From positions 1 through 64,000 of the forward strand of contig NZ_KB905398.1 of the NCBI RefSeq assembly GCF_000379465.1: a stretch of DNA of 64,000 bases. The letters are read 5' to 3'. The first letter of the stretch is position 1. Each line of letters opens with the position of its first letter. Below, piece after piece: positions 31,040 to 48,898 of this stretch. This DNA is from Sciscionella marina DSM 45152 (GTDB lineage Bacteria; Actinomycetota; Actinomycetes; Mycobacteriales; Pseudonocardiaceae). The position numbers were made by a program, and so were the translations under genes. Below the pieces are notes generated by a model. The model did no database searches. It was not told the DNA's origin and saw nothing but the letters and a program-made list of their open reading frames with translations.

Positions 31040-31310
31040 AACCGGCCGCCGGGGCTGCCGTGGGAGCTCGATCCGCACCAGACATTCGCTAACAGGGATC
31101 CACCTCCGGCCCGAAGGCCGACGCGGTCGCCGGGTTCCTAACAGGGCATCTCGAACTCCGGCAGTGGCCCTGCCCGCCAGCATGGTCAACAGGCAAGGAG
31201 TCGCGCAGCGCTCCACTCGGTCAAACAACGTTGACGGGCAGGTGCCGGACGACCCAATCCTGCCCCGCCGGCCGACAAGACAAGATCAACGCCGCACACC
31301 AAGCTTGAAT
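31040..31310 (-). ncRNA. Candidate bridge RNA locus in the left end of the IS110 element
   Basis: The left end upstream of the recombinase is non-coding and rich in potential stems, the place where IS110 elements encode bridge RNA. Reading the minus strand in order: GACCGA (31222-31217) equals part of the left target CAGACCGAC; GTTAGGAAC (31142-31134) equals the right element end at 29611-29603; GAATG (31087-31083) is complementary to CATTC at the left element end. Hairpins lie between the paired guides (GGAGCGC/GCG..CTCC near 31200; GGCC/GGCC near 31112). This order (target guide, then two donor guides) is that of IS621 bridge RNA. The right target guide is not clear. Exact RNA ends are unknown. 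Confidence 0.5.
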
Positions 31311-31322
31311 GTCGGTCTGGAT

Positions 31323-32602: not shown

Positions 32603-33568
32603 TCAGAGCCGTAAGGCCAGTCTTGGCCCCGAGCAGCGGGATACGCAGATCATCATGCAGGTGTTTTCGTTCTGTTCCTCGGTTGTCAGGACGTGGTCGC
32701 GGTGGTCGGCTGTTCCCTCGACGATGTCTGTTTCGCAGCTTCCGCATATGCCGTCCTGGCAGTCGCTGATGACGTCGATTCCGGCTGCCCGCACGACGTC
32801 GAGGATGGAGCGGTCGGCGGGGACCGGCAGTGTCAGGCCCGAGTTGGTCAGCTCGACGACGAACTCGCGCTCATCGTTGTCCACGGCGGTGGTGGGGGCG
32901 ACCGAAAACAACTCGTATCGCACTTGATCCGGTGAACCTGATCGGCGTGCTTGGTCCCGGACCGCATCGATCAGTCCTTGCGGGCCGCACACGTAGATCA
33001 GTTCGCCGCGATTGGCCGATGCCATTAGGGTCGCGAGGTCCGGGCGGCCGTATTCGTCCTCTGGTTGCACCGAGACCCGGGGGCCGTGGGCTTCCAGTTC
33101 GTCCAGGAATGCCATGGATCGGCGTGAACGTCCGCCGTACCACAGCCTCCAGTTCACGCCGGCGCGCTCGGCCTCGCGGATCATGGGCAGGATCGGTGTG
33201 ATGCCGATGCCTCCGGCGATGAAGGTGTAGCTTGTGGCGTCTTCGAGCCGGAAGTGGTTATGTGGGCGACGTATCCGCAGCACGTCGCCCACGGTGACCT
33301 CGTCGTGCAACCATCGCGAGCCACCACGGCCGTCCGGTTCGCGTAGCACCCCGATCCGGTAATGGTCGGTCGTTCCCGGGTCCCCGCACAGTGAATACTG
33401 GCGAGCCGAGCCATCTGGGGTCAGCACGTCGATATGGGCGCCCGCGCTCCACGGCGGTAGTGGCGCGCCACTGGTGCGGCGTAGGACCAACGAGCGCACA
33501 TCGGTGGCTTCGTCATGTGCCTGGGTGGCGCGTACGGAGATGGGGATGCGATCACCAGGCGATGTCAA
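32603..33568 (-). CDS. Phthalate-dioxygenase-reductase/VanB-type flavoprotein reductase, P450 partner
   Basis: A 321-residue electron-transfer protein, FMN domain first and plant-type 2Fe-2S ferredoxin last, the order of phthalate dioxygenase reductase. RQYS (57-60) binds FMN, GGIGITP (119-125) and YVCGPQG (192-198) belong to the NAD domain. The iron-sulfur ligands are Cys270, Cys275, Cys278 and a distal Cys in ENTCMMICVSR. The frame overlaps the P450 3' end by 17 bases. I chose TTG 33568 because the PDR-like sequence begins just after it, with GGGGG upstream; no ATG fits. Very probably passes electrons from NADH to the P450. Fused P450-PFOR proteins (CYP116B) use the same reductase type; here the two are separate. 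Confidence 0.9.
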   Translation of the reverse strand: MTSPGDRIPISVRATQAHDEATDVRSLVLRRTSGAPLPPWSAGAHIDVLTPDGSARQYSLCGDPGTTDHYRIGVLREPDGRGGSRWLHDEVTVGDVLRIRRPHNHFRLEDATSYTFIAGGIGITPILPMIREAERAGVNWRLWYGGRSRRSMAFLDELEAHGPRVSVQPEDEYGRPDLATLMASANRGELIYVCGPQGLIDAVRDQARRSGSPDQVRYELFSVAPTTAVDNDEREFVVELTNSGLTLPVPADRSILDVVRAAGIDVISDCQDGICGSCETDIVEGTADHRDHVLTTEEQNENTCMMICVSRCSGPRLALRL

Positions 33569-34784
33569 GGCGCTCAAGCCCCCGGAAGAAGTAGCTGGCG
33601 ATATAGGTGGGTTCGTAGCCGTCCGCCAACCGCAGTGTGGGCAGCCGGTCGAGCAGGGTCTCGATGGCCACACGTACCTCGGTGCGGGCCAGCTGGGATC
33701 CCGGACACTGGTGGATGCCGCTGCCGAAGGCCAGATGTTCCCGGACGTTGCCGCGGTCGAGATCGACCTCGTCGGGGTGGTCGAACTTGGTTTCGTCGCG
33801 GTTGGCCGAGCCGAACAGCAGCAGCAGTGCCGTGCCCTTGGGCAGGGTGACGCCGTCGAGTTCGACCTCGCGGGTGGTGACACGCATCAGTCCGCGGTGC
33901 GGCGCGTCGCGGCGCAGCGTCTCCTCGAGGATCTTGGGAAGGATTCCCCGGTCGGCTGCCGCCCGCTTCCACAGGTGCCGGTCGTCGTCGAGCATCAGCA
34001 GCAGGGCACTGGTCATCAGATCGCGGGTGGTGTCATGACCGGCGAAACGCAGGCCGCGGAACATGTAGTGCAGGTCGCCATGGCTGACCGGTGGGAAGTG
34101 GTCGCTGCCGTGGACGAGGTCTGACATGAAGTCCTCGCGTGGGTTGGCGCGGCGATCGGCGGCCATCTTCTCGACGTAGTCCTGGTAGTCGTGCAGGCGC
34201 CGGGCGGCCTCGACCTTCCCGTCGACGGGCGCGAGCGGGTTCATCAGCAGCATGTAGTCGTCGGTCCATGCCTGTACTCGGTCGACGTCCTCGGGCGGGA
34301 TACCGAAAACCAGGCTGACCACGAGCTGGACGAAGGGATCGGAGTACTGGCCGACCAGGTCCGCTCGTCGTTCGGGTACAACGGCGTCGATGAGCTCATT
34401 GGCGCGCCGTTGCATCGCGGGAAGCTGCCGGCGTACGCGGCGACCGGAAAAGGCGTGGTTGAGCACCTGCCGCAGCGGCGCGTGCTGGGGTTCGTCCGCG
34501 TTGACGACCGTGGACGCTTCCGGTAGCAGCCCGTCCAGGGCTTCCAGTACCTCGGGCGGGTTGGTCCACATCGTCGGGATGGCGTTGGCGGAGGAGAAGG
34601 TCTCCGGATCGTCGACGATGGCCCTGATGTCGTCGTAGCGGGTGACCATGTAGGCGTTCAGCGCGGGGCTGTAGGCCACCGGCTGCTCCGTGCGCGACCA
34701 GCGATAGAACAGGTGCGGGTCGGCGCGGTGGGGCGAGACCATCGGGTTGAATTCGGCGAGTCCCGCTGGCTGGGCGTTCGTCAC
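33552..34784 (-). CDS. Cytochrome P450 monooxygenase
   Basis: A 410-residue soluble bacterial P450. The I-helix oxygen-binding motif AGHDT is at 248-252, the K-helix ExxR at 288-291 (ETLR), and the haem loop FGSGIHQCPG places the thiolate at Cys360. It overlaps the PDR-type reductase gene by 17 bases, so the two are translated together and form a complete electron chain without a separate ferredoxin. It follows an AraC regulator and a catabolic operon on the same strand, so a catabolic hydroxylation or demethylation is more likely than antibiotic tailoring. The substrate cannot be read from sequence. Start ATG 34784 is preceded by AAAGGAGTGTGCTG. Confidence 0.96.
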   Translation of the reverse strand: MTNAQPAGLAEFNPMVSPHRADPHLFYRWSRTEQPVAYSPALNAYMVTRYDDIRAIVDDPETFSSANAIPTMWTNPPEVLEALDGLLPEASTVVNADEPQHAPLRQVLNHAFSGRRVRRQLPAMQRRANELIDAVVPERRADLVGQYSDPFVQLVVSLVFGIPPEDVDRVQAWTDDYMLLMNPLAPVDGKVEAARRLHDYQDYVEKMAADRRANPREDFMSDLVHGSDHFPPVSHGDLHYMFRGLRFAGHDTTRDLMTSALLLMLDDDRHLWKRAAADRGILPKILEETLRRDAPHRGLMRVTTREVELDGVTLPKGTALLLLFGSANRDETKFDHPDEVDLDRGNVREHLAFGSGIHQCPGSQLARTEVRVAIETLLDRLPTLRLADGYEPTYIASYFFRGLERLDIAW

Positions 34785-34891: not shown

Positions 34892-35893
34892 TCAGCGTGA
34901 CTGGTCGTGCAGGGTGGCGACCGGGAGGTCACCGAACCGACGGCGGTAGTCGCGGGCGAATCGGCCCAGGTGGTGGAAGCCCCAGCGGGTGGCGATTTCG
35001 GTGACGGTGCGATGCGCGGGATCGGCGTTGACCAGGTCTCGGTGCGCGGATTCCAAGGCACGTGCGCGCCGGTACGCGGTCGGGCTGAGGCCGAGCTCGC
35101 GGGCGAACGCGTTTTGCAGGGCGCGCACGCTCACGCCGCAGACCCTCGCCAGTGCCAGTACATCCACCGGTTCGTCGAGGTGCTCCTCGATGAACCGGAC
35201 GGCCGTGCGCACCACGCGGCTGGTGGCGATCGGTCGTTCCGCGTCGAGTTCGTCGCGATACTCGTGCCGCGCGGTGTGCAGGAATGAGGTCAACAGCGTC
35301 CTTGTCAGCGAGTCGGCGATCCGCCGGCAGCGTTGCGGTGGGAGTGTGCTGCCGAGATCGAACACGGACTGCGCGAGACCGACCCAGGAACGAGCCGCGG
35401 CATCACTCAGATCGAGGGCGTGCTCGAACGCGATGGAACCTCGCAGGGGCCGATTCAACAGCTCGGTCAGATCGCGTTCGAGCACTTCGCGACTGAAGCG
35501 GATCCCGATCTGGGCGCACCCGGCGTTCCACCGGTCGATGACCGAGGGCAGATCCGGTGTGTAGACCGCGGCGGTGGAGGGCGACGCGATCAGCCGCTGA
35601 TCGCCGCAGCGGGTATCGACGCGTCCGGACAGGGGGATGTTGACCTGGTACCCGGTTTCCAACCGGCCACAGTCCAGTCGGACCGCTGCCCCATACTCGA
35701 TCGCACCGACGGTCATCTCGGGCCCGAACTCGCAGGCGCGCAGCCGCATTCCGACCGACTCACGGCCGTCCTGGTCGACCGGTATGAGGTGATGCGGGAA
35801 GAACGCGCGTTCGCCGATCGAGCGAGCACGATCGAGGTCACCGGTCGAGACGACCAGCCACTGCACACCACTGCGTTGTGGTTCTCGGCGCAT
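34892..35893 (-). CDS. AraC-family transcriptional regulator
   Basis: A 333-residue regulator. Residues 1-210 resemble the AraC-binding-like ligand domain (VNIPLSGRVD, AAVYTPDLP). The two C-terminal helix-turn-helix units (about 225-325) include DVLALARVCGVSVRALQNAF and VTEIATRWGFHHLGRFARDYRRRFG, the AraC signature. It sits 107 bases upstream of the P450 start on the same strand and 124 bases after the aldehyde dehydrogenase, so it probably controls the P450-reductase pair and may read through from the catabolic operon. Confidence 0.95.
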   Translation of the reverse strand: MRREPQRSGVQWLVVSTGDLDRARSIGERAFFPHHLIPVDQDGRESVGMRLRACEFGPEMTVGAIEYGAAVRLDCGRLETGYQVNIPLSGRVDTRCGDQRLIASPSTAAVYTPDLPSVIDRWNAGCAQIGIRFSREVLERDLTELLNRPLRGSIAFEHALDLSDAAARSWVGLAQSVFDLGSTLPPQRCRRIADSLTRTLLTSFLHTARHEYRDELDAERPIATSRVVRTAVRFIEEHLDEPVDVLALARVCGVSVRALQNAFARELGLSPTAYRRARALESAHRDLVNADPAHRTVTEIATRWGFHHLGRFARDYRRRFGDLPVATLHDQSR

Positions 35894-36017: not shown

Positions 36018-37502
36018 TCACCAGGCCACGGCCAGGTATTGGGTTTCGGTGTAGTCGAGTACTCCTTCGTGTCCGCCCTCGCGTCCAAGCCCGCTTTGTT
36101 TCGCTCCCCCGAACGGTGCGGCCGGGTCCGACAGCAGGCCACGATTGATACCCACCATGCCGGTTTCGAGTCGTTGTCCCAACCTGATGGCTTTGCTGAC
36201 GTCGCGCGCGTACACGTAGGAGGCGAGGCCGTATTCGGTGTCGTTGGCTTGAGTGACCGCGTCGCGTTCGTTGGTGAAGCGCACGATCGGGGCGACCGGA
36301 CCGAAGATCTCGGTGTGCAGGATGGCCGCGTCGGTGGGTACGTGGTCCAGGATCGTCGGGGCGATGTACCAGCCTTTGCCCTGGTTCTCGGTTTCGCCGG
36401 TCACCAGGGTGGCGCCGGCGGCCAGTGTCGAGTCCACGAGCGCGCGGATGTTGTCGCGTGCCCGTTTGTCGATGAGTGGTCCGAAGTCGGTGTATTCGTC
36501 CAGGCCGGGGCCGATGACGAGGTCTTGCAGCCGCCGCGCCAGTCCGGCGACGAACTCGTCGGCGATGTCGTCGTGCACGTAGAACCGGTTGGCCGCGGTG
36601 CAGGCCTGCCCGCCGTTGCGCATTTTCGCGATCATCGCGCCATCGAGGGCCGCGTCGAGGTCCGCGTCGGCGCAGACGATGAACGGGGCATTGCCACCCA
36701 GTTCCATCGACGAGGCGAGTACGCGGTCGGCGGCCTGGGCCAGCAGGCGGCGCCCCACGGCGGTGGATCCGGTGAACGAGATCTTCCGTACCCGGGCGTC
36801 GTCGAGCAGTGCCGACACCACTGGTCCGGGGTCGCTGGTGGGGATCACGTTGACCACCCCGGGTGGCGCGCCAGCACGCTCGAGCAGGCAGGCCAGCGCC
36901 AGTGCCGTCAGCGGGGTCTGCGCCGCGGGTTTGAGCACGGCGGTGCATCCGGCCGCCAAGGCGGGGCCGATCTTGCGGGTCGCCATGGCCGCGGGAAAAT
37001 TCCAGGGGGTGATCAGCGCGGCGACACCGACGGGGTTGAGCGCGGTGACCAGGTGGTTGCCGCCGCCGGGAGCTGGTCCGATCGTCCCGGTCAGACGAAC
37101 CGCTTCCTCGGAGTACCAGCGGAAGAACTCGGCGGCGTAGGTGACCTCGGCGCGGGCATCGGCGATGGCCTTGCCGTTCTCCCAGCTGATGAGGGCGGCT
37201 AGCTCATCGCGGTGTTGCTGCATGAGCTCGTAGGCGGCGCGCAGCACCTCGGCGCGGGCCCGGGGCGGGCGCTGAGCCCAGGTGGGCAGGGCGGCCGCCG
37301 CCGCGTCCACCGCCTTTCTCGCCTCGCCCGGGGTCACCGCGGACACCGTCGTGATCGTCTCGTCGGTCGCGGGGTCGAGGACGTCGAACGAGCCGGCACC
37401 GGCTGTCGCGCGCCATTCGTTGTCGATCCAGGCGCCGAGCGGGCGATGCGGCGACAGAAAGGTGTCTACCGCGTTGCGGGCGTGTTCGCGGTTGTCGGTC
37501 AT
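36018..37502 (-). CDS. NAD(P)-dependent aldehyde dehydrogenase (succinate-semialdehyde dehydrogenase-like)
   Basis: A 494-residue ALDH that oxidises an aldehyde to an acid. PWNFPAAMATRKIGPALAAG and FTGSTAVGRRL (cofactor domain), the general base Glu in ELGGN and the catalytic Cys in NGGQACTAANR are all present, as is the C-terminal PFGGAKQSGLGREGG. The overall pattern is closest to GabD-like semialdehyde dehydrogenases. The ATG overlaps the crotonase stop (ATGA), so they are coupled. Its place at the end of the transketolase/crotonase operon suggests it removes a short aldehyde produced by that pathway. Confidence 0.95.
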   Translation of the reverse strand: MTDNREHARNAVDTFLSPHRPLGAWIDNEWRATAGAGSFDVLDPATDETITTVSAVTPGEARKAVDAAAAALPTWAQRPPRARAEVLRAAYELMQQHRDELAALISWENGKAIADARAEVTYAAEFFRWYSEEAVRLTGTIGPAPGGGNHLVTALNPVGVAALITPWNFPAAMATRKIGPALAAGCTAVLKPAAQTPLTALALACLLERAGAPPGVVNVIPTSDPGPVVSALLDDARVRKISFTGSTAVGRRLLAQAADRVLASSMELGGNAPFIVCADADLDAALDGAMIAKMRNGGQACTAANRFYVHDDIADEFVAGLARRLQDLVIGPGLDEYTDFGPLIDKRARDNIRALVDSTLAAGATLVTGETENQGKGWYIAPTILDHVPTDAAILHTEIFGPVAPIVRFTNERDAVTQANDTEYGLASYVYARDVSKAIRLGQRLETGMVGINRGLLSDPAAPFGGAKQSGLGREGGHEGVLDYTETQYLAVAW

Positions 37503-38206
37503 TTCCCGAACATCTCCACGAACGCGTCCGCCCCCTGGCGCAGCGCCTGCTCGTAGGGTTCCTCGCGGCTGGCGAGGAACAGTGAGCGCCCGGCCAGCGC
37601 GGCCTGGCCGCCGCCTTGGGCGAGTTCGGCGTAGTGATGGACACGGTCGGCCAGATGCCCGGCGGGGACAACCTCGTCGACGATGCCGAGTTCATGGGCG
37701 CGGCGCGCGCCGAAGGGTTGCCCGGTCAGGGCGTTGGTCAGCGCGGCCTTGATCGGGACTCGGCGGGCCACCGGGCCCTGCGCGATCATCGGCCACGTGC
37801 CGAGGGTGGCCTCGATGGTACCGAGCCTGCAGCCCTCGACCGCGATGACGATGTCCGCGCTGCACACCAGTCCGAACCCGCCGGCCAGTGCGTCACCGTT
37901 GACCGCGGCCAGGATTGGTTTGCGCGCTCGCGGAAAGTGCGCGAACAGCTCGACCGCCGCGTCGGCAAACTCGCGGGCCGTTCCGGTTTCGCGCAGTTTC
38001 GGCCCGTCGGCGCCGCCGCAGAAGAACTCGCCGGCTCCGGTGAGCACGAGCGCGCCGACCGAGTCGTCGCCGTCGAGCTCGACCAGCGTGGTGTGCAGTT
38101 GAACGGTCAGGTCGGTGTCGAGGAGGTTCTTCGGCGGGCGGTTGAGCCGGATCCAGGCGACGCGGCCGCTGCGTTCGATCTCGACCAAGGGGCGTGTGGT
38201 GGTCAT
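37499..38206 (-). CDS. Enoyl-CoA hydratase/isomerase family protein (crotonase)
   Basis: A 235-residue crotonase-fold protein. The oxyanion-hole segments are ADGPKLRE and LAGGFGLVCSADI; one acidic residue remains in IEATLG, but the other usual Glu (GGGxEL) is replaced (GGFGL). Single-Glu crotonases act as isomerases, hydrolases or C-C lyases as well as hydratases, so the reaction is open. Start is ATG 38206, overlapping the stop of the Dabb gene by four bases; the longer frame to 38557 just reads through that gene in another phase. The 3' end overlaps the aldehyde dehydrogenase start. Confidence 0.92.
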   Translation of the reverse strand: MTTTRPLVEIERSGRVAWIRLNRPPKNLLDTDLTVQLHTTLVELDGDDSVGALVLTGAGEFFCGGADGPKLRETGTAREFADAAVELFAHFPRARKPILAAVNGDALAGGFGLVCSADIVIAVEGCRLGTIEATLGTWPMIAQGPVARRVPIKAALTNALTGQPFGARRAHELGIVDEVVPAGHLADRVHHYAELAQGGGQAALAGRSLFLASREEPYEQALRQGADAFVEMFGK

Positions 38207-38538
38207 ACCGCGTGTTCCTTTCGGCCGGTGATGGTGGCTTCTGGGACGTAGTCCAGGGCGAATCGCTCCTCGCACAGCTCGTCGAGCCGTTCGAGCAGCC
38301 GAAGGTGGGCCGGGTGGTTCCAGTACTGGTCCTGGAAAGCAGTTTCCGAGCTCAGACGGGCCAGGCAGGCGTGGGTGAAACCACGCTGCAACCCACTGGG
38401 GTTGAGGTTCTGCCCGAAGGTCAGCTCGAGCAGGCCGGGCAGGCTCCCATGGACCCCCGCGCCGAACTCGGATAGGGCCTGGGCCAGATCTTCGATGCGC
38501 CCGGGTTTCGGTTTGAAGACCACATAGTGTTCGAACAT
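38203..38538 (-). CDS. Dabb (stress-responsive A/B barrel) domain protein
   Basis: A 111-residue dimeric alpha/beta-barrel type protein: it starts FEHYVVFKPKPG, has PGLLELTFGQN and ends its barrel at CEERFALDYV. Dabb proteins in catabolic and biosynthetic operons range from small enzymes (cyclases, decarboxylases) to proteins without a known reaction. It is coupled by four-base overlap to the crotonase and lies 15 bases after the dehydrogenase gene. No catalytic residues can be assigned with confidence. Confidence 0.88.
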   Translation of the reverse strand: MFEHYVVFKPKPGRIEDLAQALSEFGAGVHGSLPGLLELTFGQNLNPSGLQRGFTHACLARLSSETAFQDQYWNHPAHLRLLERLDELCEERFALDYVPEATITGRKEHAV

Positions 38539-38553
38539 CGCTCAGGACTCCTT

Positions 38554-39462
38554 TCACGCCTCGCGTGCGGGCAGATCGGACACGAGGGCTTGCAACTCAT
38601 ACAGCGCGGAGAAGTCGTCCTGGCCGTGGCCCAGCCCGATACAGGACTGGATCAGTTCTCGGGTCACCGCGGCCAGTGGCAGCGGTACACCGAGCTCGCG
38701 TGCCTGCTCGAGGCCGAGGTCGAAGTCCTTGCGCAGCAACGTGGTGGTGAACGTGGGCGGCTGGTAGTCGCGGCTGATCAACGGTCCGGACTTGGCGGTG
38801 ATGAACTTCGAGGACAGCACCGTGTTCCCGAGGAACTCGAAAAAGGCCTCGCGTTCGATGCCCGCCTTGTCCATCAGCGCCAGCACCTCGCCCAGGGATT
38901 GGGTGATCAAGCCGAGCAGCAGGTTGTGACCGAGCTTCGCCAGCCGCGCGACCTCCCCCTGTCCGGCATACACGGCGGCACGGGCGATGGTCTCCAGCAA
39001 CGTGGACACGCGATCGAAGGATTCCCGCGGGCCGGAGGCGACGACACACGCGCCGCCGGCAGCGACCACGTCGGGGTTGCCACTGATCGGCGCGGCCACG
39101 AAATTCCACCCGGCCTGCTCTGCCGCGTCCCGGGTTTCGGCCGAAGCCTGCGGTGAAACGGTCGAGCAGTCGACGATCGTGCGGTCCGGGCCGGTGCCAC
39201 CCCCGGAGAACAGGCCCCCGGGGCCCGTGGTGACCGCCAGCAGGTCGGCAGGGCCGGAGACCGTGATGAACACGACCTCGCAGTCGGCCAACTCCGCCGG
39301 AGTACCGACGGGATTCACGTGGTCGGTTCGCCACTGGGCGATCTTCGATGGTGTCCGGTTGTAGGCGGCGATGGTGTGACCGGCGTCGATCAGGCGATCG
39401 GCCATCCGAGTACCCATGCGGCCGAGGCCGATCCAGCCGATGTGCGGGCGTGATGAGGACAT
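38554..39462 (-). CDS. Beta-hydroxyacid dehydrogenase (3-hydroxyisobutyrate/tartronate-semialdehyde reductase family)
   Basis: A 302-residue NAD(P)-dependent dehydrogenase. The Rossmann motif GWIGLGRMGTRMA (9-21) is followed by AYNRTPSK, where Arg suggests NADPH preference, the substrate-binding loop APISGN, and the catalytic Lys in ARLAKLGHNLLLG. It interconverts a beta-hydroxyacid and a semialdehyde, or reduces an imine in divergent members. The ATG overlaps the M24 gene stop (TGATG). Together with the aldehyde dehydrogenase it suggests a pathway running through a hydroxyacid/semialdehyde intermediate. Confidence 0.93.
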   Translation of the reverse strand: MSSSRPHIGWIGLGRMGTRMADRLIDAGHTIAAYNRTPSKIAQWRTDHVNPVGTPAELADCEVVFITVSGPADLLAVTTGPGGLFSGGGTGPDRTIVDCSTVSPQASAETRDAAEQAGWNFVAAPISGNPDVVAAGGACVVASGPRESFDRVSTLLETIARAAVYAGQGEVARLAKLGHNLLLGLITQSLGEVLALMDKAGIEREAFFEFLGNTVLSSKFITAKSGPLISRDYQPPTFTTTLLRKDFDLGLEQARELGVPLPLAAVTRELIQSCIGLGHGQDDFSALYELQALVSDLPAREA

Positions 39463-40823
39463 CAGGCTCCCTTCGGCTCGGCCGCCACGGCCCCATTACC
39501 CGTGGAGTGCGCGGGCACGACGTTGCCGGTCGGCACGGTCGAGGTGTTGAACGAGAACCCGTTCCAATAGCGGGTGCCCGCGACCAGCAGTTCGTCGGCG
39601 GGGAATCGTGTGATCACGCGGGCGCCGTCGGCGGTCACGACGACTTCCTCCTCGATGCGCGCCGCGGACGAGCCGTCCGGGGTCGGCCAGTAGGTCTCCA
39701 GCGCGAAGACCATCCCCTCTTCGATGTCGACGGGATGGTCGAGCGAGTGGTAGCGGCTGATCAACGGCTGCTCCCAGACCGAGAGGCCGACGCCGTGGCA
39801 GTACTGCAGCCCGAACGCCTCTTCCTCGCTGGCATACCCGAGATCCTTCGCAGACGGCAGCGCTCGCGCCACGTCGGCGCTCGTCGCGCCGGGGCGCACC
39901 GCTGCGATCGCGTTGTCGATCGCCTCGCGGGCCTTGCCGTAGGCGTCGCGCTGGGCGCTGCTGGCGCTGCCCACGTTCAAGGTTCGGTAATAGCAGGTGC
40001 GGTAGCCGTTGAACGAGTGGATGATGTCGAAGTAGGCGGTATCGCCGGGCCGAGTCAGCCGGTCGGAGAACACGTGCGGGTGCGGGCTGCACCGTTCACC
40101 CGAGATCGCGTTGACCGCTTCGACCTCTTCGGAACCGAGTTCGTAGAGCACCCGGTTGACCAGCGCGACGCACTCGTTCTCGCGGGTACCGACGTGCAGG
40201 TTGCGGTAGAGCTCGTCGTAGGCGGCATCGACCATCCCGGCCGAATGGTCCAGCAGGGCGATCTCGTCGACGGTCTTGATCCGCCGTGCCCGCTGCATCA
40301 GCTCCTGGCCGTTGACGATGTGCAGACCCTCCGCTTCCAAGGCGCGCAGCACCGGAATTTCGACCACGTCGACACCGATCGACTCGCCGGACAGACCGGC
40401 ATCGCGCAGCAGTTGGGCGATGCGGTGGGCGTTGCCGCGTTCCACACCGACGTCCTCGGGGATCGAACCCCGCCAACTCGAGATCCCGGCCTGCCAGCTG
40501 TCGGGACCGAACCAGGGCGCGTGTGCCTTGTGCTGGCGAGCCGCGGAACCGATATCCCACAGGATCGGGTCCCGATCACGCATCACCAGCGCGCACCGGA
40601 ACAGTTTGTCCCGTGCCCAGTTGCCGATGTAGGTGGCGGTGGTGTAGCGGATGTTGTTCATGTCGAACAGCACCAGCGCGCCGATATCGGAGTCGCGCAG
40701 CTGCCGTTGGACGCGTTCGAAGCGTTGGGTGCGCAGCCGGGTGAAATCGACCCGCTGTTCCCAGTCCACGGCCATGACCGCACCCGGCGAGGCCACCGGC
40801 GTGTCGTTGTTCAGAATGCCCAT
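39462..40823 (-). CDS. M24-family 'pita-bread' protein with degenerate metal site (DddP/creatinase-like branch)
   Basis: A 453-residue member of the M24B superfamily with a creatinase-type N-terminal domain (about 20-185) and a C-terminal pita-bread domain. Aligning the usual five metal ligands by motif: Asp266 (FDII), His343 (CHGVGL), Glu376 (LETYW) and Glu391 (RIEEE) are present, but the second Asp of the normal SDxTRT motif is replaced by Cys277 in GYRTCYYRT, and the following HE histidine is Trp350. So ordinary Xaa-Pro aminopeptidase activity is doubtful. It is distantly like the DMSP lyase DddP, but DddP's paired aspartates are missing too. Start ATG 40823; MAVDWEQ (about residue 18) is an alternative. 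It lies in the middle of the catabolic operon. Confidence 0.88.
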   Translation of the reverse strand: MGILNNDTPVASPGAVMAVDWEQRVDFTRLRTQRFERVQRQLRDSDIGALVLFDMNNIRYTTATYIGNWARDKLFRCALVMRDRDPILWDIGSAARQHKAHAPWFGPDSWQAGISSWRGSIPEDVGVERGNAHRIAQLLRDAGLSGESIGVDVVEIPVLRALEAEGLHIVNGQELMQRARRIKTVDEIALLDHSAGMVDAAYDELYRNLHVGTRENECVALVNRVLYELGSEEVEAVNAISGERCSPHPHVFSDRLTRPGDTAYFDIIHSFNGYRTCYYRTLNVGSASSAQRDAYGKAREAIDNAIAAVRPGATSADVARALPSAKDLGYASEEEAFGLQYCHGVGLSVWEQPLISRYHSLDHPVDIEEGMVFALETYWPTPDGSSAARIEEEVVVTADGARVITRFPADELLVAGTRYWNGFSFNTSTVPTGNVVPAHSTGNGAVAAEPKGA

Positions 40824-40848
40824 CAGAGAACTCCCTTGTCCTTGCTCG

Positions 40849-41853
40849 TCACACCGGTGCGTACTCGCCCGCTTCGACGGGCGTGGCCGCGGCCGCGGGT
40901 GGTTCGTCGGTGCGGTCCAGCGCGTTCCAGGCGGCGTCGATGATGTGCTGTGTCGTCAGGCCATAGCGTTCGAACAGGTAGGGGCCGCTCAGCGCTCCTT
41001 CGGCGAAGGTGTCGCGCAATCCCACTCGCCGTAAGGTTCGTCCCAGCCCTGCCTCGGCGAGGGTCTCGGCGACCGCGGATCCGAGTCCGCCGATGATGCT
41101 GTGGTTCTCCGCTGTCACCACCGCACGCGCCGACCGGGCGACGCGCACAACCGTGTCGACGTCGAGTGGTTTGATCACCGGCACGTTCACCACGGCGACC
41201 CGCACACCACGGCCTCGCAGCGTCGAGGCGGCGGCCAGTGCGGCCGACAGCATCATGCCGTTGGTGAAGATCGCGACCTCGTCGCCCGTGGAGATCACCT
41301 GCGCCTGCTCCAGCGACACGCGCCGGTCCTCGTCGAAGATCACCGGGATCTCCCCACGCTTGAGGCGCAGATATACCGGGCCGGGATGATCGGCGATCAA
41401 CGGCACGATCTGTGTGATCTCCGCGGCGTCGGCCACGTCGATCACGGTCATGTTCGGCAGTGCCCGCATCAGGGCGATGTCCTCGATCGCCTGATGGCTG
41501 GGCCCGCCGGGACTGGAGATGCCGGGCATGAACCCGATCAGGCGCACCGGCAGGTTGGGATAGGCCACCGCGTTCACGATCTGATCCAACGGCCGTCGCG
41601 TGGCGAACACACCGAAGGTGTGCACGAACGGGTTCAGTCCTTCGCGGGCCATCGCTCCGGCCATGCCGATCATGTTCGCCTCGGCCATGCCCGCATGCAC
41701 GAATCGGTCCGGCAGCTCGTCGCGGAACAGATCGACCTCGCACTGCCGGGTCAGATCCCCGGACAAGCACACGACATCCTCGCGTTGTCGTGCCAACTCC
41801 ACAAGAGCACGGCCGTAGGGTTTCTGCACGGTCTGGTAGGGCGGTTCACGCAT
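40849..41853 (-). CDS. Split transketolase, C-terminal (pyrimidine/C-domain) subunit
   Basis: A 334-residue protein with the transketolase pyrimidine-binding domain (about 5-170) and C-terminal domain. HAGMAEANMIGMAGAMA carries the conserved Glu that activates thiamine diphosphate; FGVFATRRPLDQI and GGPSHQAIEDIALMR are typical. With its N-terminal partner it should form a two-subunit ThDP enzyme that transfers or releases a two-carbon ketol unit. The two genes overlap by eight bases. Such split transketolases occur in sugar and sulfosugar pathways and in uncharacterised catabolic operons; no sugar kinase or isomerase is nearby, so a non-sugar ketol substrate is possible. Confidence 0.93.
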   Translation of the reverse strand: MREPPYQTVQKPYGRALVELARQREDVVCLSGDLTRQCEVDLFRDELPDRFVHAGMAEANMIGMAGAMAREGLNPFVHTFGVFATRRPLDQIVNAVAYPNLPVRLIGFMPGISSPGGPSHQAIEDIALMRALPNMTVIDVADAAEITQIVPLIADHPGPVYLRLKRGEIPVIFDEDRRVSLEQAQVISTGDEVAIFTNGMMLSAALAAASTLRGRGVRVAVVNVPVIKPLDVDTVVRVARSARAVVTAENHSIIGGLGSAVAETLAEAGLGRTLRRVGLRDTFAEGALSGPYLFERYGLTTQHIIDAAWNALDRTDEPPAAAATPVEAGEYAPV

Positions 41854-42694
41854 AGCGCGCCTCCAGTTCGGTGAAGGCCTGGTTCGCCAGGTCGGGGGGA
41901 AGTTTGATGAAATGCCCGTCCGCGTCGGGGGGCAAGCAGTCGAGGCCGTGCCGGGTGGAGGTGCGCGCGATGATCACGCTGGGACGTGTCGCGGACAGGG
42001 CATCGGCGTACGCGTGGCGCAGGGCGTCGAGATCGTGCCCGTCGAGCTCGGCGACGTGCCAGCCATGCGCGGCCCACTTCTCGCCGATGGGCTCCAGGGT
42101 GGTGATCCCGTCGACAGGACCGTCCACCTGTGAGTTGTTCGCGTCCAGCACCACCGTCAGGCGGCCGAGCCGGTGGTGGGCCGCGAACAGGGCCGCCTCC
42201 CACAACTGGCCCTCCTCCAGTTCACCGTCGCTGCACAGCACGAACGTGTGTGGCGCGTCCGCTTCCTCCTCGCGTCCGCGCAACCGGTCGGTGTAGGCGA
42301 ATCCCACACCCCCGGACAGGCCCTGGGCCAGGGAGCCGCAGGTGAGGTCCACGGCCGGGGACCGTTCGGTGCCGATGGCCTCCACACGCGACCCGTTCTG
42401 CCCGTATGCGGCCAGTTCCTCGGGGTCCAGCAGGCCGACTTCGGCCGCGACCGCGTAGGCGGCGACGATGTAGTGACCGGGCGAGCAGACGAACCGGTCC
42501 ACGCCGGGCCGGAACAGCTCGGCACACAACACCGCCAGGGTCTCGGCCGCGGACAGGGCCTGGCCGAGATAGCCGAACCCCTGTGGTGCCACCATGCGCA
42601 GCGCGCGCAACCGGATGCCCGTGGCCACCCGGGCCGCGTCGTGGCGCGGGGCGGGGATCGCGGTTGCGCGCGTGGGGGACAAAGAGCGTGTCAT
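41846..42694 (-). CDS. Split transketolase, N-terminal (ThDP diphosphate-binding) subunit
   Basis: A 282-residue ThDP-binding subunit. The diphosphate motif is SDGELEEGQLWEA (155-167) ending in NN (186-187); the usual first Gly of GDG is Ser. Also visible: the substrate-side His in SPGH, and GSLAQGLSGGVGFA. Start ATG 42694; the longer frame upstream overlaps the flavin reductase gene and lacks transketolase sequence. It overlaps the C-terminal subunit gene by eight bases and lies 43 bases after the flavin reductase. Together the two form a complete transketolase. Confidence 0.93.
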   Translation of the reverse strand: MTRSLSPTRATAIPAPRHDAARVATGIRLRALRMVAPQGFGYLGQALSAAETLAVLCAELFRPGVDRFVCSPGHYIVAAYAVAAEVGLLDPEELAAYGQNGSRVEAIGTERSPAVDLTCGSLAQGLSGGVGFAYTDRLRGREEEADAPHTFVLCSDGELEEGQLWEAALFAAHHRLGRLTVVLDANNSQVDGPVDGITTLEPIGEKWAAHGWHVAELDGHDLDALRHAYADALSATRPSVIIARTSTRHGLDCLPPDADGHFIKLPPDLANQAFTELEARYA

Positions 42695-42737
42695 GGGTTG
42701 TCCTTCGGGTCGGTGGGATCGCTGATCGATCATCGCG

Positions 42738-43238
42738 TCACGCTGCCCAGCTGCCGAAACGGCCGCGGTAGAACAGCAACGGATCGTCGAGTTCGGACTC
42801 GTCCAGGTCGGTGACGCGCCCGAGGACGATCTCGTGATCGCCGGCATCGTGCACAGTCTCGAGCCGACATTCGACGTAGGCCAGGTGCCCTTCGAGCACC
42901 GGTGTTCCCGTCCGGGACGGATGCCAGCGCACGCCGCGGAACTTGTCGCCTCCCGAGACGGCGAAGGTGTCACAGAGTTGTTGCTGCGCCCCGCTGAGGA
43001 TGTTGGCTCCGAACCGGCCGGTCTCGACGATCCTCGGCCACGAGCGTGAGGTCTTTTGCGGGCAGAACAACACCAACGGCGGGTCCAGGGACACGCTCAC
43101 CAGCGACTGCACGAGCAGCCCGGTCGGCCCGGCCTCGTCAACGCCGGTGATCACGGCGACCCCGGTACAGAATCGGCTCATCGTCGTTCGCAGTCGGCCC
43201 GGATCGACACTGGGTTCGAGATCCTGGTCGGTTGTCAT
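42738..43238 (-). CDS. Flavin reductase (HpaC/HsaB-like), partner of a two-component monooxygenase
   Basis: A 166-residue NAD(P)H:flavin oxidoreductase of the split-barrel family. LRTTMSRFCTGVAVITG, SLVSVSLDPPLVLFC and the GRVTDLD segment are diagnostic; Arg/Ser residues after TSRSW fit flavin binding. It should feed reduced FMN or FAD to the divergent hydroxylase at 44282-45517. Start ATG 43238 overlaps the RibB-like gene stop by four bases; the longer frame from 43355 lies inside that gene. Confidence 0.93.
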   Translation of the reverse strand: MTTDQDLEPSVDPGRLRTTMSRFCTGVAVITGVDEAGPTGLLVQSLVSVSLDPPLVLFCPQKTSRSWPRIVETGRFGANILSGAQQQLCDTFAVSGGDKFRGVRWHPSRTGTPVLEGHLAYVECRLETVHDAGDHEIVLGRVTDLDESELDDPLLFYRGRFGSWAA

Positions 43239-43879
43239 GCCACGCTCTCCTGTTCCACAAGACCAAGCCGGTACCGGTCGGCGAACTCGACCATCGCCGA
43301 GTGACGGGCCAACCGGGCACTGTCGGGCGTCACCAGATGGCTGTACACACCACAACTGCCCAGACCGGCACTTCGAACGAAATCGGCGACCTGCTGCGCG
43401 GGGCCCGAACCTTCAACGACGGAATCGACGCGGACCGGGACCATATGCCCGGGACGGTTGAAGTCCTCGCGAACCGAGCCGGGATCGGCCAGCAGCCGGG
43501 CCGTTCTGGCCCGATCACGGGCCGAGATGCCGGTCCCTATCCCCTCGGCCGCATCGACGGTCACCCGCATGGCACCAGCCGGACCGTCCTCGTCGGTCCA
43601 CGGCATCCCAGGCAGGCCCAGCCGTTGACACGCCGGAGCAGACACAGTGACGAACACCAGCCCCGAGCAATGGCGAACGACAAACGCCATCGTCGTCGCG
43701 GTCACCAGGCTCCCGGCCACGACAACAAGCCCGACAGGCTCACCACCCTGTGTCGACCCCAGAACCACAGGACGCCCCGCGCGAAGCTCGCCGACCGGAT
43801 CCACCGGGACACCGGCACTGGCCGGTCGCAGCGCCGACTCGGCGGCTGTGGCCACGCATCCATCGACCGCGACACTCAT
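43235..43879 (-). CDS. RibB-like protein (3,4-dihydroxy-2-butanone-4-phosphate synthase fold) lacking the catalytic acidic loop
   Basis: A 214-residue homologue of RibB, the riboflavin-pathway enzyme. Conserved RibB segments are GIGTGISARDRARTARLLAD (113-132) and NRPGHMVPVR (141-150), plus MAFVVRHCSG and CQRLGLPGM. But the acidic, metal-binding loop after the first strand (normally D-x-x-D-R-E-N-E-x-D) is GSTQGGEPVG here (41-50), with essentially all the acids lost. Synthase activity is therefore unlikely. It is the first gene of the operon (GGAG nine bases before ATG 43879) and is coupled to the flavin reductase, so a role in flavin handling, or a reassigned reaction on another phosphate or diol, is possible. 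No function can be claimed. Confidence 0.85.
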   Translation of the reverse strand: MSVAVDGCVATAAESALRPASAGVPVDPVGELRAGRPVVLGSTQGGEPVGLVVVAGSLVTATTMAFVVRHCSGLVFVTVSAPACQRLGLPGMPWTDEDGPAGAMRVTVDAAEGIGTGISARDRARTARLLADPGSVREDFNRPGHMVPVRVDSVVEGSGPAQQVADFVRSAGLGSCGVYSHLVTPDSARLARHSAMVEFADRYRLGLVEQESVA

Positions 43880-44281
43880 ATCTCAGGCTCCACTTCGCTG
43901 TAAGACCCCTCGAATCAGGTTGAAGCCAGTCTGTGGTCCACGAGGCCCCCGCACCATGGGCTGGTTACACAAAGTGTCGGGCAAGTCTTGTGCGGCACGC
44001 GTCCAGCAACTCGGATCCCGGACTTCACACCATTTCCGCCACTAGACATGAGCAGCGAATCTGTTGGATCGACACCCGCGCGAGGCGCAGTGCCAAGCAG
44101 AACCCACAACGTTCGGCCATTCTTCCCGGGAAGGGGTTTGCACAAACGCGGGCGCGCACTCTGTCACGACAGACCGTATACGGATTCACGACGGCGGGGC
44201 GAGACTTCGAGCCGTTCGAGACGAACCCCAACGCCGATGCCCCGGTGTGGTTCTCCCTAGCTCTGACCAATGGAGGTCACC
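43880..44281. promoter_or_regulatory. Divergent promoter region between the long catabolic operon and the hydroxylase gene
   Basis: About 400 bases separating the RibB-like gene (minus) from the hydroxylase gene (plus). It must contain both promoters. I saw no perfect long inverted repeat; the frame reading through it on the plus strand has no ribosome site and is rejected. The hydroxylase ribosome site GGAGG is at its right edge. It is the probable target of the PucR/CdaR-type regulator at 45575. Confidence 0.6.
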
Positions 44282-45517
44282 ATGACGGACACCCTGTCCC
44301 CTGCCGCCGAGACGACTCGTGCCACGGGATACGACGCCGACATCGTCGCCCGAGCAACCGCGTTGCACGACCTCATCCGGGACGAGGCAGCACAAGGAAA
44401 CGAAGCCCGCCAAATCACCCCACGCGTGACCGACGCGATCGACGAGGCCGGCCTGTTCAACCTGATGGTCCCGACCCGGCTAGGCGGACCCAGCGCCTCG
44501 GCTCGCACCATGATCGAGGCACTGATCGAACTCGGGCGAGCGGACGGTTCAGCGGGATGGAGTGCCGCACTGGTCAACGCGTGCACCTGGTTCGCTGTCA
44601 CCTACGGCGAAAAGGCCCAGCAGGACCTGTGGGCAGGCCATCCCCAGACCAAGGTGTGCGGGATCTTCTTCCCCGGTATGACCCGCCGCCACGAACTGGG
44701 CACCGGCTCGAAAGTCGAGGGCGGGTACGTGCTCACCGGCCGGTACCCCTACGCCTCAGGCAGCGCCGTCGCCGACTGGGCCACGCTCGGGATGATGGTC
44801 GACGGCCCGAACGGTGAGCCGACCATGGCACTCGGGCTCGTCGAAGCCAAGGACTGGACGGTCGAAGACACCTGGTTCACCTTGGGCATGCGCGGAACCG
44901 GGAGCAACACGCTGGTCGTCGAGGACGTGTTCATCCCCGACCACCGCATTCAAACGTTCGAAAACCTCTCCCAGGGCCGCTACGCCACCCCGTTCGCCGA
45001 ATCCGAACCGAACTCGCGCGCGGCATTCCTGCCCGTGGGCACCGTGATCCTCGCGGCCCCGGCGATAGGCCTCGCCAAAGCAGCACTGGACTACTCCCTG
45101 GGCAAACTGCCGACGCGCTCGGTCGGGTACACCGTGTACACCGAGGCGCGCAACTCCCCCACCCACCACATCGCCATCGCCCAAGCAGCCAGCAACATCG
45201 ACGCCGCCCACCTGCTGCTGGGCCGCGCCTGCGACGACATCGACTCCTACGCCGCCCGAGGCCAATACCCCGACGACCGCGCCCGCAGCCGCATGAGGAT
45301 GGACACCGGGCACGCGATCTCCCTGTGCAAGGACGCCATCGACGCTCTCATGACCGCCAACGGGGCCGGAGCGTTCGCGCAAGAAGGCACACTCGGCCGC
45401 ATCTGGCGCGACGCCAACACCGGGGCACGGCACGCCTTCGCCACCCCCGAGATCGGCAAGGAAGTCTACGGGCGCCTGCTGCTCGGCGCGGACGACGCAC
45501 TGACCATCCAGGTCTGA
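44282..45517 (+). CDS. Class D flavin-dependent monooxygenase (acyl-CoA dehydrogenase fold, HsaA-like)
   Basis: A 411-residue hydroxylase component of a two-component flavin monooxygenase. It has the acyl-CoA dehydrogenase fold (N-terminal helices, FNLMVPTRLGG, beta domain around GRYPYASGSAVADWA and GMRGTGSNTLVVEDVFIP, C-terminal helices) but sits in a cluster with a matching flavin reductase, as HsaA does with HsaB. Such enzymes hydroxylate phenols and related aromatics. Start ATG 44282 with GGAGG upstream. It is the only gene before a strong hairpin at 45521-45556, then the PucR-type gene. A ring-hydroxylation role fits the decayed hydroxyquinol pathway genes further right, but the true substrate is unknown. 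Confidence 0.92.
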   Translation: MTDTLSPAAETTRATGYDADIVARATALHDLIRDEAAQGNEARQITPRVTDAIDEAGLFNLMVPTRLGGPSASARTMIEALIELGRADGSAGWSAALVNACTWFAVTYGEKAQQDLWAGHPQTKVCGIFFPGMTRRHELGTGSKVEGGYVLTGRYPYASGSAVADWATLGMMVDGPNGEPTMALGLVEAKDWTVEDTWFTLGMRGTGSNTLVVEDVFIPDHRIQTFENLSQGRYATPFAESEPNSRAAFLPVGTVILAAPAIGLAKAALDYSLGKLPTRSVGYTVYTEARNSPTHHIAIAQAASNIDAAHLLLGRACDDIDSYAARGQYPDDRARSRMRMDTGHAISLCKDAIDALMTANGAGAFAQEGTLGRIWRDANTGARHAFATPEIGKEVYGRLLLGADDALTIQV

Positions 45518-45520
45518 CCA

Positions 45521-45556
45521 GTGTCGTGGCGGGATACCGTAGTCCCGCCACGACAC
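45521..45556 (+). terminator. Hairpin between hydroxylase and PucR-type gene
   Basis: Perfect 14-bp arms GTGTCGTGGCGGGA (45521-45534) and TCCCGCCACGACAC (45543-45556) with an 8-base loop, four bases after the hydroxylase stop. The ribosome site of the PucR-type gene (AAGGAGG) starts five bases later. It probably ends most hydroxylase transcripts and lowers read-through into the regulator; no U-tract is present. Confidence 0.75.
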
Positions 45557-45574
45557 CTTCAAGGAGGCATCAAC

Positions 45575-46909
45575 GTGGATGCAGCCGAACCAGCGGAGCC
45601 GGACTGGCTACTGGACCTCGCGCCCAGAAAAGACGACCCGGTCGAACCGCTCAGCGACGCCCCGACAAGAACACTCGCCGTGACCGAACTGGGCGACGGC
45701 CCCGTCGCGTGGGCGGTGGTAACAGCACGGCGAGCAGCCGACCACATCCTTGAACTGCTGCCGGCGTTCGGCGGCGACCTGGCCGCCGAACAGCTACTGC
45801 GGCGTGCCGTCGAGTCGACCACGATCGCCGTGCTGCGAGCGTTTCTCAGCGGCGACCCCGAAACCCTCTGGCCCGGCACCGAACCCGCCGACGCCACCAA
45901 CTCCTACGTACGCCGCGGTATCTCGATGGACTCCGTGATCCGCGGCATCCACCTGTGCCAAGAAACGATCACCGCCAGCCTCCTCGACGAAATCGACCGC
46001 CGCGGGCGGCCGGTGACCGACGCCCAGCACGCCAACGAGCTCCTGTTCCGCTGCTTCGACCTATTCAGCGCCAACATCGCAGCGCGTTACTCACTCGAAG
46101 CCGAGCAATGGTCACAATCCACAGCAGCGATACGAGCCGAACTGATCGACAAAGTGCTCTCCGGAACAGCCGTCGACGGACAACAAATCTCATCCGCGCT
46201 CGACTACCAGCTCGACGGAAGCCACCTCGCAGGGGTGATCTGGCTGGACCCCTCCCACGCCCAAGCCGGCGCACAAGACGAACTCGACGCCGCCCTCGAC
46301 ACCCTCGATCGAAAACTCGGCCAACACCACTCCCTACGCAGGTGGGCCGACCTGTCGACCGTGCACATCTGGCACGAGGACCCAGACGGCAACATCTACC
46401 AAGCCCTGCGGAAAATCAACGAATCCCCGCTACCGTCACGACGCGCCCGCATGGCGATCGCCGGCCAGGAAACCGGAATGGAAGGCTTCCGCAGCAGCCA
46501 CACCCGCGCCCTGTCCGCGGCACGCGTCGCGAACTTCTCCGGACAACAAGCGGCCTGGATCACCGACTACGCCGACATCGAACTCGTCGCACTCATCAGC
46601 ACCGACCTCGACATGACCCGCTCCTTCATCCGACGCATGCTCGGCCCACTCGCCCACGACGACCAACGTGCCGCCGAACTACGCGAAACACTCGAGGTCT
46701 ACCTCGACGTCCAACGCAGCATCACCCAAGCCGCCCGACGACTGCACACACACCGCAACACAGTCGTCTACCGCATCAAAAAAATCGAAGAAATCTTCGG
46801 CACCGACCGACTCAAAAACCACTCACTCGAACTCGGCGTCGCACTCCGCGCCACCTCCAGCCTCGGCGCCCCCGTCCTGTTCACCCGACCACCGCCGACA
46901 ACCACCTGA
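45575..46909 (+). CDS. PucR/CdaR-type transcriptional regulator
   Basis: A 444-residue regulator with a C-terminal PucR helix-turn-helix (about 380-435: YLDVQRSITQAARRLH, HRNTVVYRIKKIEEIFG). The middle holds a GGDEF-like degenerate domain typical of the family, and the N-terminal 150 residues are helical (ESTTIAVLRAF, RRGISMDSVIRGIHLCQ). Start GTG 45575, seven bases after AAGGAGG. It follows the hydroxylase gene across a hairpin and probably controls the divergent promoter region at 43880-44281. The frame can be read further upstream to 45521, but that lies in the hairpin. Confidence 0.93.
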   Translation: MDAAEPAEPDWLLDLAPRKDDPVEPLSDAPTRTLAVTELGDGPVAWAVVTARRAADHILELLPAFGGDLAAEQLLRRAVESTTIAVLRAFLSGDPETLWPGTEPADATNSYVRRGISMDSVIRGIHLCQETITASLLDEIDRRGRPVTDAQHANELLFRCFDLFSANIAARYSLEAEQWSQSTAAIRAELIDKVLSGTAVDGQQISSALDYQLDGSHLAGVIWLDPSHAQAGAQDELDAALDTLDRKLGQHHSLRRWADLSTVHIWHEDPDGNIYQALRKINESPLPSRRARMAIAGQETGMEGFRSSHTRALSAARVANFSGQQAAWITDYADIELVALISTDLDMTRSFIRRMLGPLAHDDQRAAELRETLEVYLDVQRSITQAARRLHTHRNTVVYRIKKIEEIFGTDRLKNHSLELGVALRATSSLGAPVLFTRPPPTTT

Positions 46910-48895: not shown

Positions 48896-48898
48896 TCA

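Follow-up and report, generated by a model that had tools for sequence, protein, structure and literature searches.

What kind of pathway brings together a two-subunit transketolase, a protein of the M24 peptidase fold and a flavin-dependent oxygenase? The question is raised by an operon of the soil actinobacterium Sciscionella marina DSM 45152, which lies at 36018-43879 and beyond in the 64,000-nucleotide stretch of contig NZ_KB905398.1 that we analysed as a whole (the window; contig C19 of the 8.5-Mb draft genome). Nine minus-strand genes, all of them open, encode in order of transcription a RibB-like protein, a flavin reductase, the N-terminal (TKN) and C-terminal (TKC) subunits of a transketolase, the M24 protein, a dehydrogenase of the 3-hydroxyisobutyrate dehydrogenase (HIBDH) type, a Dabb protein, a crotonase-fold enzyme and an aldehyde dehydrogenase (ALDH), while an HsaA-type oxygenase and a PucR-type regulator are encoded divergently by genes that are likewise open. 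These classes had been named in a preliminary description of the sequence, and Pfam confirmed them; the genes overlap at five of the eight operon junctions, and the largest gap is 43 bases. That description knew of no named pathway with this gene set, and we found no assigned one in the open-licence literature, which is weak evidence, as subscription journals lie mostly outside it. The gene organization described is confirmed, and other genomes share its core, namely an M24 enzyme with a cysteine substitution in its metal site, a thiamine diphosphate (ThDP)-dependent enzyme that cleaves C-C bonds and a β-hydroxyacid dehydrogenase. We tentatively propose, at somewhat less than an even chance, that the operon serves the catabolism of an aromatic compound, probably phenolic and perhaps methoxylated, with this core at its centre.

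Conservation of the operon and its core

At E 1e-90 or better, relatives of the window M24 protein were found in 36 of the family's 390 genomes, and at E 1e-60 in 25 of 298 from the order. Reference genomes were also scanned with a pattern, which gave at least 589 stretches encoding such relatives; the locus sample is uneven because the best 80 of these 589 were taken, several of them from one genus. Genes were called in 113 loci, 111 of which yielded an M24 gene (L145 and L158 had no M24 call), and neighbours were counted within 9.5 kb. Left out of the counts after fetching were L046, L051, L074, L076, L079, L080, L083, L089, L090 and L091, which repeat, overlap, adjoin or are closely related to other entries, and L040, a Rhodococcus plasmid locus with an M24 gene and no transketolase or E1 gene, which was simply omitted.

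A ThDP enzyme accompanies the M24 gene in 78 of the 111 loci. Both subunits of the window-type transketolase, whose co-occurrence with M24 had been suggested as a check, lie nearby in 11 loci and an E1 component of the pyruvate dehydrogenase (PDH) type in 67, with no locus (0/111) carrying the two together; when only loci with full flanks are counted, 58 of 75 carry one or the other. The E2 component is present in 38 of the 67 E1 loci. A β-hydroxyacid dehydrogenase occurs in 10 of the 11 transketolase loci, compared with 56 of the 100 other M24 loci, and a Dabb gene in 7 of the 11, compared with none of the 100. The smallest transketolase loci, L095 and L102, comprise only a regulator gene, which we read as being of the GntR/FadR type, followed by TKN, TKC, M24 and HIBDH. 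Distant transketolase-like genes lying several kb off and outside transketolase clusters in three Streptomyces E1 loci (L112, L115 and L127) were not counted as a co-occurrence of transketolase and E1. Several Streptomyces loci (L112, L113, L117 and others) share a regular cluster of XRE-cupin regulator, M24, E1α, E1β, amidohydrolase, bicupin and short-chain dehydrogenase/reductase (SDR) genes, in which the E1 pair has no lipoyl partner E2 nearby.

The association was also examined from the side of the transketolase. An M24 gene lies at most 3 kb from TKC in seven of the eight genomes, including that of the window, whose TKC is at least 58% identical to the window protein, and in none of the 49 genomes whose TKC is at most 49% identical, a contrast that exceeds chance. 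Seven of the eight came from the family search, and G134 was added by the order search; the sole exception, G553, is a 78%-complete draft with no M24 gene in the 20 kb read or in the family M24 list. The distant set consists of 36 family genomes (43-49% identity), none of which appears in the family M24 list, and 13 genomes from the order search, two of which have a remote M24 gene, located in G032 about 48 kb away from TKC on a shared contig and in G036 on a separate one.

The closest twin of the operon, in Streptomyces sp. SID8352 (L093), has 10 of the 11 window genes and lacks the RibB-like one. There, the PucR gene is divergent from HsaA, flavin reductase, crotonase, TKN, TKC, M24, Dabb, ALDH and HIBDH genes. 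Identity to the window proteins is highest for M24 (81%), TKC (69%), TKN (64%), ALDH (61%) and Dabb (55%), and lower for HsaA (45%), crotonase (44%), flavin reductase (37%), PucR (32%) and HIBDH (28%); for the last two, we claim family membership alone because the identity is low. Absence of the gene set from other genomes had been named as the result that would refute the suggested catabolic operon, and this twin, the locus counts and the reciprocal counts show that the set is conserved.

In a tree of 58 M24 proteins, the eight transketolase-associated rows form one side of a branch with a support of 100/100. A single uptake of the transketolase, which we considered, holds for these eight rows, but it is at odds with L213, where a transketolase set lies 2 kb from an M24 gene of the other branch (53%), and with L214, where the set has no M24 gene in 20 kb. 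The M24 module was seen in actinobacteria, Chloroflexota, Acidobacteriota, Bacillota, Myxococcota and Pseudomonadota, and it is accompanied by uptake systems and one-component regulators. These features argue against the synthesis or modification of a secondary metabolite in place of nutrient degradation, an alternative that we consider hardly credible, even though the top Protein Data Bank (PDB) match of the oxygenase is XiaF (3.4e-58, ahead of HsaA at 3.6e-52), a biosynthetic enzyme, and two very long open reading frames (ORFs; 2469 and 4658 aa), probably of large synthases, occupy the minus strand at 2-21409.

Further relatives of the M24 protein were found on haloarchaeal plasmids. In a small sample of six such regions, an annotated ThDP enzyme lies within about 6 kb in four (L204, L209, L210 and L211), with an additional E1 α/β pair in L209 and L211; L205 and L212 lack both. 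Recurrent neighbours of these genes are EthD proteins, cupins and luciferase-like oxygenases. A Haloferax NAD(P) oxidoreductase beside M24 was considered as an HIBDH, but a family scan assigned it to the extended SDRs. Because the kind of ThDP enzyme varies while M24 stays, the arrangement points to a shared, testable chemical step, and the loci with and without the transketolase may use the same core for different substrates.

Active sites of the M24 enzyme and the split transketolase

Residues D266, C277, H343, E376 and E391 are invariant in all 58 aligned M24 relatives, and the motif GYxxCYYR is found in 114 of 114 copies. Of the ligands D, D, H, E and E that characterize an M24 metallopeptidase, four are therefore kept, while the second, bridging Asp is replaced by Cys277. 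Tyr278 and Tyr279, the other candidates for the position of the lost ligand, were ruled out by the gap-free spacing of GYxSDxTRT against GYRTCYYRT and by the alignment with the M24 proteins of the same genome. In the nine other M24 proteins of this genome, the bridging position holds Asp in five and Cys in one, the rest having Pro, Gln or a gap. An M24 protein encoded on contig C48 (L206:9439-10707) has a Cys at this position (GYTACLYRQ), lacks the first Asp and lies in a different neighbourhood. Two of the haloarchaeal relatives (L204 and L205; ~31-33% identity) share the bridging Cys.

The AlphaFold model of the protein (pLDDT 85.1) confirmed the pita-bread fold, and a Foldseek search with it returned prolidases, creatinase and the ectoine hydrolase DoeA at a probability of 1.00, with the dimethylsulfoniopropionate (DMSP) lyase DddP as the top match. 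Pfam and NCBIfam place it as a peptidase-family member only. Besides the fold, prolidases (Xaa-Pro peptidases), creatinase and DoeA have in common with it four of the metal-ligand positions (1, 3, 4 and 5) and a His in the segment SGxxxxPH, but they carry the bridging Asp, and the NCBIfam scores are far under the cut-offs. A working Xaa-Pro peptidase was rejected on the Cys found in 58 of 58 sequences, and DoeA on a score of 50.8 bits against a cut-off of 613 (TIGR02993). DddP is the closest match in both fold and sequence (4s01; Foldseek E 5.7e-27, phmmer 2.2e-26), and its Asp295, His371, Glu406 and Glu421 positions are kept. According to the DddP report, the ligands of that enzyme include Asp297 and Asp307, and Tyr366 and Asp377 are catalytic (PMC4108388). 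In the window protein, Asp307 corresponds to Cys277, and Asp297, Tyr366 and Asp377 are not conserved in its family; the NCBIfam score for DddP is 120 bits against 600, and this candidate was rejected as well. Because the bridging Asp is a Cys and the DddP catalytic and ligand residues are not kept, the M24 enzyme is neither a standard peptidase nor a DddP. The preliminary description had called it a pseudo-peptidase; however, judged from its residues, it is not obviously dead, and since the four remaining ligands and the Cys in place of the fifth never vary, it looks like a reshaped active site.

The transketolase subunits together contain all of the Transketolase_N, pyr and C domains. The top PDB match of both is the split transketolase of Carboxydothermus hydrogenoformans (6yaj/6yak; 1.9e-65 for TKC, and 4.2e-38 to 6yak for TKN), which has the same two-subunit architecture but keeps an Arg, a Ser and a His where the window enzyme has Gln, Gln and Met. 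In all 11 window-type transketolases, the position of yeast His30 is a Tyr (motif GYLGQ), yeast His103 corresponds to the Ile in E(A/S)IGTE, and a Met takes the place of human His416; the positions of human Arg318 and Ser345 (the latter a Gln) are also changed, whereas Arg474 is kept. These are the substrate-binding histidines and phosphate-binding residues of classical transketolases, so that each of the 11 enzymes differs at three of the four phosphate-binding residues and at the His that holds the C1-hydroxyl of the donor. Retained are the His of GHY, which reads AHY in one enzyme, and that of DGHF. The housekeeping transketolase of the same genome retains the classical GHPG, PGHPE and THD motifs. 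Catabolic split transketolases of Pararhizobium and Pantoea also lack the His30 and His103 equivalents, and the loss is thus not unique to the M24 group.

With two active-site histidines and most of the phosphate-binding residues gone, a phosphosugar reaction is unlikely as far as the sequence allows this to be judged. This bears on classical sugar catabolism, in which the split transketolase would take a glycolaldehyde unit off a ketose and pass it to a phosphorylated aldose, in the way of apiose-type pathways. Even though the top PDB matches are true transketolases, one of them split, and RbsA-like sugar ABC genes occur at other M24 loci and in the transketolase locus L094, the changed residues, in an operon that encodes neither a sugar kinase nor an isomerase or an aldolase, leave very little probability for such a function. 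The scheme put forward initially combined hydroxylation, ThDP-dependent release of a two-carbon unit and clean-up of a semialdehyde. Its first and last steps and a ThDP cleavage fit the enzyme classes and their neighbours, but a classical two-carbon release is not supported: because the transketolase residues are changed and a PDH-type E1 replaces the enzyme in 67 of 111 loci, a group other than glycolaldehyde may be cleaved off.

The proposed aromatic pathway and its alternatives

In the aromatic pathway that we propose, a cytochrome P450 and its reductase, encoded near the operon, may first free a hydroxyl group, and the HsaA-type oxygenase with its flavin reductase, whose enzyme class is clear, would hydroxylate the ring. 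The dearomatised product would be rearranged or hydrated by the Dabb and crotonase proteins, and the M24 enzyme would break a C-C or C-N bond, hydrolytically or as a lyase, with an anionic α-dicarbonyl or ketol as the product. The split transketolase, having lost the classical sugar and phosphate residues, would cleave this compound by means of ThDP, a PDH-type E1 standing in for it elsewhere, and the resulting semialdehyde would be handled by the ALDH and the β-hydroxyacid dehydrogenase. The PucR regulator probably senses the compound.

A bolder version, which we regard as unlikely though worth stating, is a widespread fission of oxygenated aromatic rings without a ring-cleavage dioxygenase. 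The Cys-metal M24 enzyme would act on the dearomatised ring, or on the product first formed from it, by opening it, and the dicarbonyl would be cleaved by a ThDP enzyme that can be exchanged: the split transketolase here, and in other organisms, among them haloarchaea, a PDH-type E1 or one resembling acetolactate synthase. The M24 group would then represent a catalytic type new to this fold, whose metal site contains a thiolate. The anaerobic resorcinol/hydroxybenzoquinone (bqd) pathway of Azoarcus anaerobius and Thauera uses a PDH-like ThDP complex that helps to split a hydroxylated ring without a dioxygenase, but it is anaerobic, and we know of no M24 enzyme in it. If the aromatic reading is true, it adds a non-dioxygenase route to the aerobic breakdown of lignin-type phenolics.

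The aromatic context is best illustrated by a hydroxyquinol-type operon on plasmid pRHL3 of Rhodococcus jostii RHA1. Like the window, it combines an HsaA-type oxygenase (48% identity to the window protein), a flavin reductase, a degenerate RibB-like protein, a Dabb protein and a maleylacetate reductase with a divergent P450 and reductase, to which the window pair is 31% and 46% identical, respectively. It differs in having an annotated ring-cleavage dioxygenase and in lacking the transketolase, M24 and HIBDH genes. The window region thus shows the same gene kinds minus the dioxygenase, and its maleylacetate reductase gene is frame-broken; a genome-wide search returned ring-cleavage dioxygenase homologues on contigs C86, C2 and C6 only and none on the window contig. 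Lacking both this enzyme and an intact maleylacetate reductase, the window operon is not one of the hydroxyquinol pathway. Both the oxygenase and its cognate reductase score below the NCBIfam equivalog cut-offs for the HsaA system, a match in superfamily but not in function.

The RibB-like protein had been counted as part of the set. By gene labels it is absent from the other ten transketolase loci and thus lies outside the conserved core, and in the alignment to 3mk5 it has lost the RENEGD-like catalytic acid loop of a 3,4-dihydroxy-2-butanone 4-phosphate (DHBP) synthase; its counterpart in the RHA1 hydroxylase operon shows the same loss. On pRHL3 (L172 and L174), RibB-like genes lie with two-component flavin oxygenases. 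The loop is degenerate in one of the proteins and intact in the other, whose gene adjoins a luciferase-like oxygenase.

The RHA1 hydroxyquinol-type operon, which has no transketolase or M24 gene, suggests that the window operon could hold two independent modules, a phenol hydroxylase module (HsaA, flavin reductase, RibB-like protein and formerly maleylacetate reductase) feeding a separate hydroxyquinol pathway, and an unrelated M24/transketolase module. L095 and L102 have transketolase, M24 and HIBDH genes and no oxygenase in the stretch examined, and contig C2 (L207) carries a separate, intact pair of hydroxyquinol dioxygenase and maleylacetate reductase genes; because the genome holds this pair, the oxygenase product may go to it. 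However, SID8352 again joins HsaA and flavin reductase genes with those for transketolase, M24, ALDH, HIBDH, crotonase and Dabb, and L214 joins them with TKN, TKC, HIBDH and ALDH, which speaks against two separate modules, a reading that we regard as improbable.

Locus L214, from another member of the Pseudonocardiaceae, also touches on the possible methoxyl group of the substrate. It contains genes for HsaA (48%), an MTHFR-like protein, HIBDH, ALDH, crotonase and flavin reductase and a single called frame that covers TKN and TKC, and one of its genes matches vanillate/3-O-methylgallate O-demethylase (4.5e-109). In Nocardioides sp. PD653-B2 (L157), an O-demethylase-like gene (59% identical to that of L214) stands beside M24, and the crotonase of the window is 59% identical to an M24-adjoining gene of the same strain. 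Crotonases of the 6-oxocamphor/β-diketone hydrolase type are encoded in L096, L213 and L214, the top match of the L214 protein being 6-oxocamphor hydrolase, and L105 has an intradiol-dioxygenase-like gene next to M24.

Several observations weigh against an aromatic pathway built on this core. Neither transketolase nor E1 is present in 33 of the 111 M24 loci (17 of the 75 with full flanks). The intact pair on contig C2 may offer the oxygenase product another outlet, and the Dabb proteins of the window and RHA1 share no match at E 1e-4. LigM-like O-demethylase genes were found in only 2 of the 149 loci searched, and of these two, L214 has no M24 gene and L157 neither transketolase nor E1. The window crotonase is not of the β-diketone hydrolase type; its top PDB match is 3-hydroxypropionyl-CoA dehydratase (1.6e-23). 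Finally, in place of aromatic genes, many M24 loci without the transketolase have a gene for an amidohydrolase (42 of 100), RidA or a bicupin, which would suit a nitrogen-containing compound equally well.

These last neighbours suggest that the core may act on a nitrogen compound. The M24 enzyme would then hydrolyse a C-N bond, as do creatinase and ectoine hydrolase, both among its fold matches, and would act after a deaminating amidohydrolase, and the oxygenase would open or de-aminate a heterocycle. The amidohydrolase in question belongs to the PRK08204/8-oxoguanine and 5'-deoxyadenosine deaminase superfamily, and the non-transketolase loci further contain XRE-cupin regulators (47/100), RbsA-like ABC ATPases (34/100) and bicupins (33/100). 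On Paenarthrobacter plasmids RidA adjoins M24, and one of them also has SulR and HsaA-type genes. At the transketolase loci, on the other hand, an amidohydrolase is found in 1 of 11, as a broken gene (L092), and an XRE-cupin regulator in 0 of 11; together with the low DoeA score, this makes the nitrogen reading rather unlikely for the window, though a serious competitor. If true, it would name a group of C-N hydrolases that are now annotated as peptidases.

The SadA/SadB/SadC sulfonamide monooxygenase system of Microbacterium and Paenarthrobacter uses flavin oxygenases of the same superfamily. The window HsaA-type protein is 40% identical to one encoded on the plasmid of Paenarthrobacter sp. 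R1, which has a window-family M24 gene near SulR; that M24 gene has no transketolase or E1 within 9.5 kb, and the window has no sad cluster. The 42-kb plasmid of the reported sulfamethoxazole degrader Paenarthrobacter ureafaciens SD-1 (L041/L203) carries M24, a fused E1, E2, RidA, an amidase and an HsaA-type gene, and that of strain R1 (42,658 bases) is nearly equal. Degradation of the sulfonamide side chain was considered as a function and rejected because the heterocycles are reported to accumulate (PMC10873849).

Gene coordinates and the surrounding island

Two gene starts were corrected, that of TKN to the ATG at 42694 and that of the crotonase to 38206. The best NCBIfam match of the ALDH is succinate-semialdehyde dehydrogenase (SSADH), at 555 bits below the cut-off of 646.

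Table 1 Features of the operon and its surroundings, with positions in the window
Feature	Position	Strand	Evidence
Phthalate-family reductase of P450	32603-33577	-	Fer2 4.5e-11
Cytochrome P450	33552-34784	-	p450 3.9e-24
AraC gene	34892-35893		
ALDH, NAD(P)-dependent, succinate-semialdehyde-dehydrogenase-like	36018..37502	-	Pfam Aldedh 6.8e-161
Crotonase-fold enzyme	37499..38206	-	Pfam ECH_1 1.2e-35
Dabb small barrel protein	38203..38538	-	Pfam Dabb 4.8e-13
β-Hydroxyacid dehydrogenase (3-hydroxyisobutyrate/tartronate semialdehyde reductase family; HIBDH)	38554..39462	-	NAD_binding_2 1.2e-33, NAD_binding_11 9.5e-20
M24-fold enzyme, Cys277 replacing the bridging metal-ligand Asp	39462..40823	-	Peptidase_M24 1e-31
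Cys277 codon of the M24 gene	39993..39995	-	computed from gene start 40823
TKC, transketolase C-terminal subunit	40849..41853	-	Transket_pyr 1.4e-29 + Transketolase_C
TKN, transketolase N-terminal ThDP-binding subunit	41846..42694	-	Transketolase_N 6.3e-30
Flavin reductase, HsaB-like	42738..43238	-	Flavin_Reduct 2.9e-44; NCBIfam HsaB 202.8 bits (cut-off 230)
RibB-like protein, degenerate	43235..43879	-	DHBP_synthase 1.1e-38
Flavin-dependent oxygenase, HsaA/acyl-CoA dehydrogenase-like type	44270..45517	+	NCBIfam HsaA 243 bits (cut-off 450)
PucR-type regulator	45521..46909	+	HTH_30 1.1e-18, GGDEF_2 2.5e-07
Maleylacetate reductase, frame-broken	47640-48899	-	two overlapping matches in different frames: 47994-48716, 47710-48057

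The operon is part of a larger island that includes the P450, its reductase, the AraC gene and the broken maleylacetate reductase gene. The P450 and reductase pair (32603..34784) is probably an upstream part of the putative pathway, and the frame break in the maleylacetate reductase gene reflects either a pseudogene or a sequencing error. Just outside the island, two minus-strand ORFs (29617-31005 and 31221-31820) have transposase-like translations, as judged by eye, and suggest that the region may be mobile.

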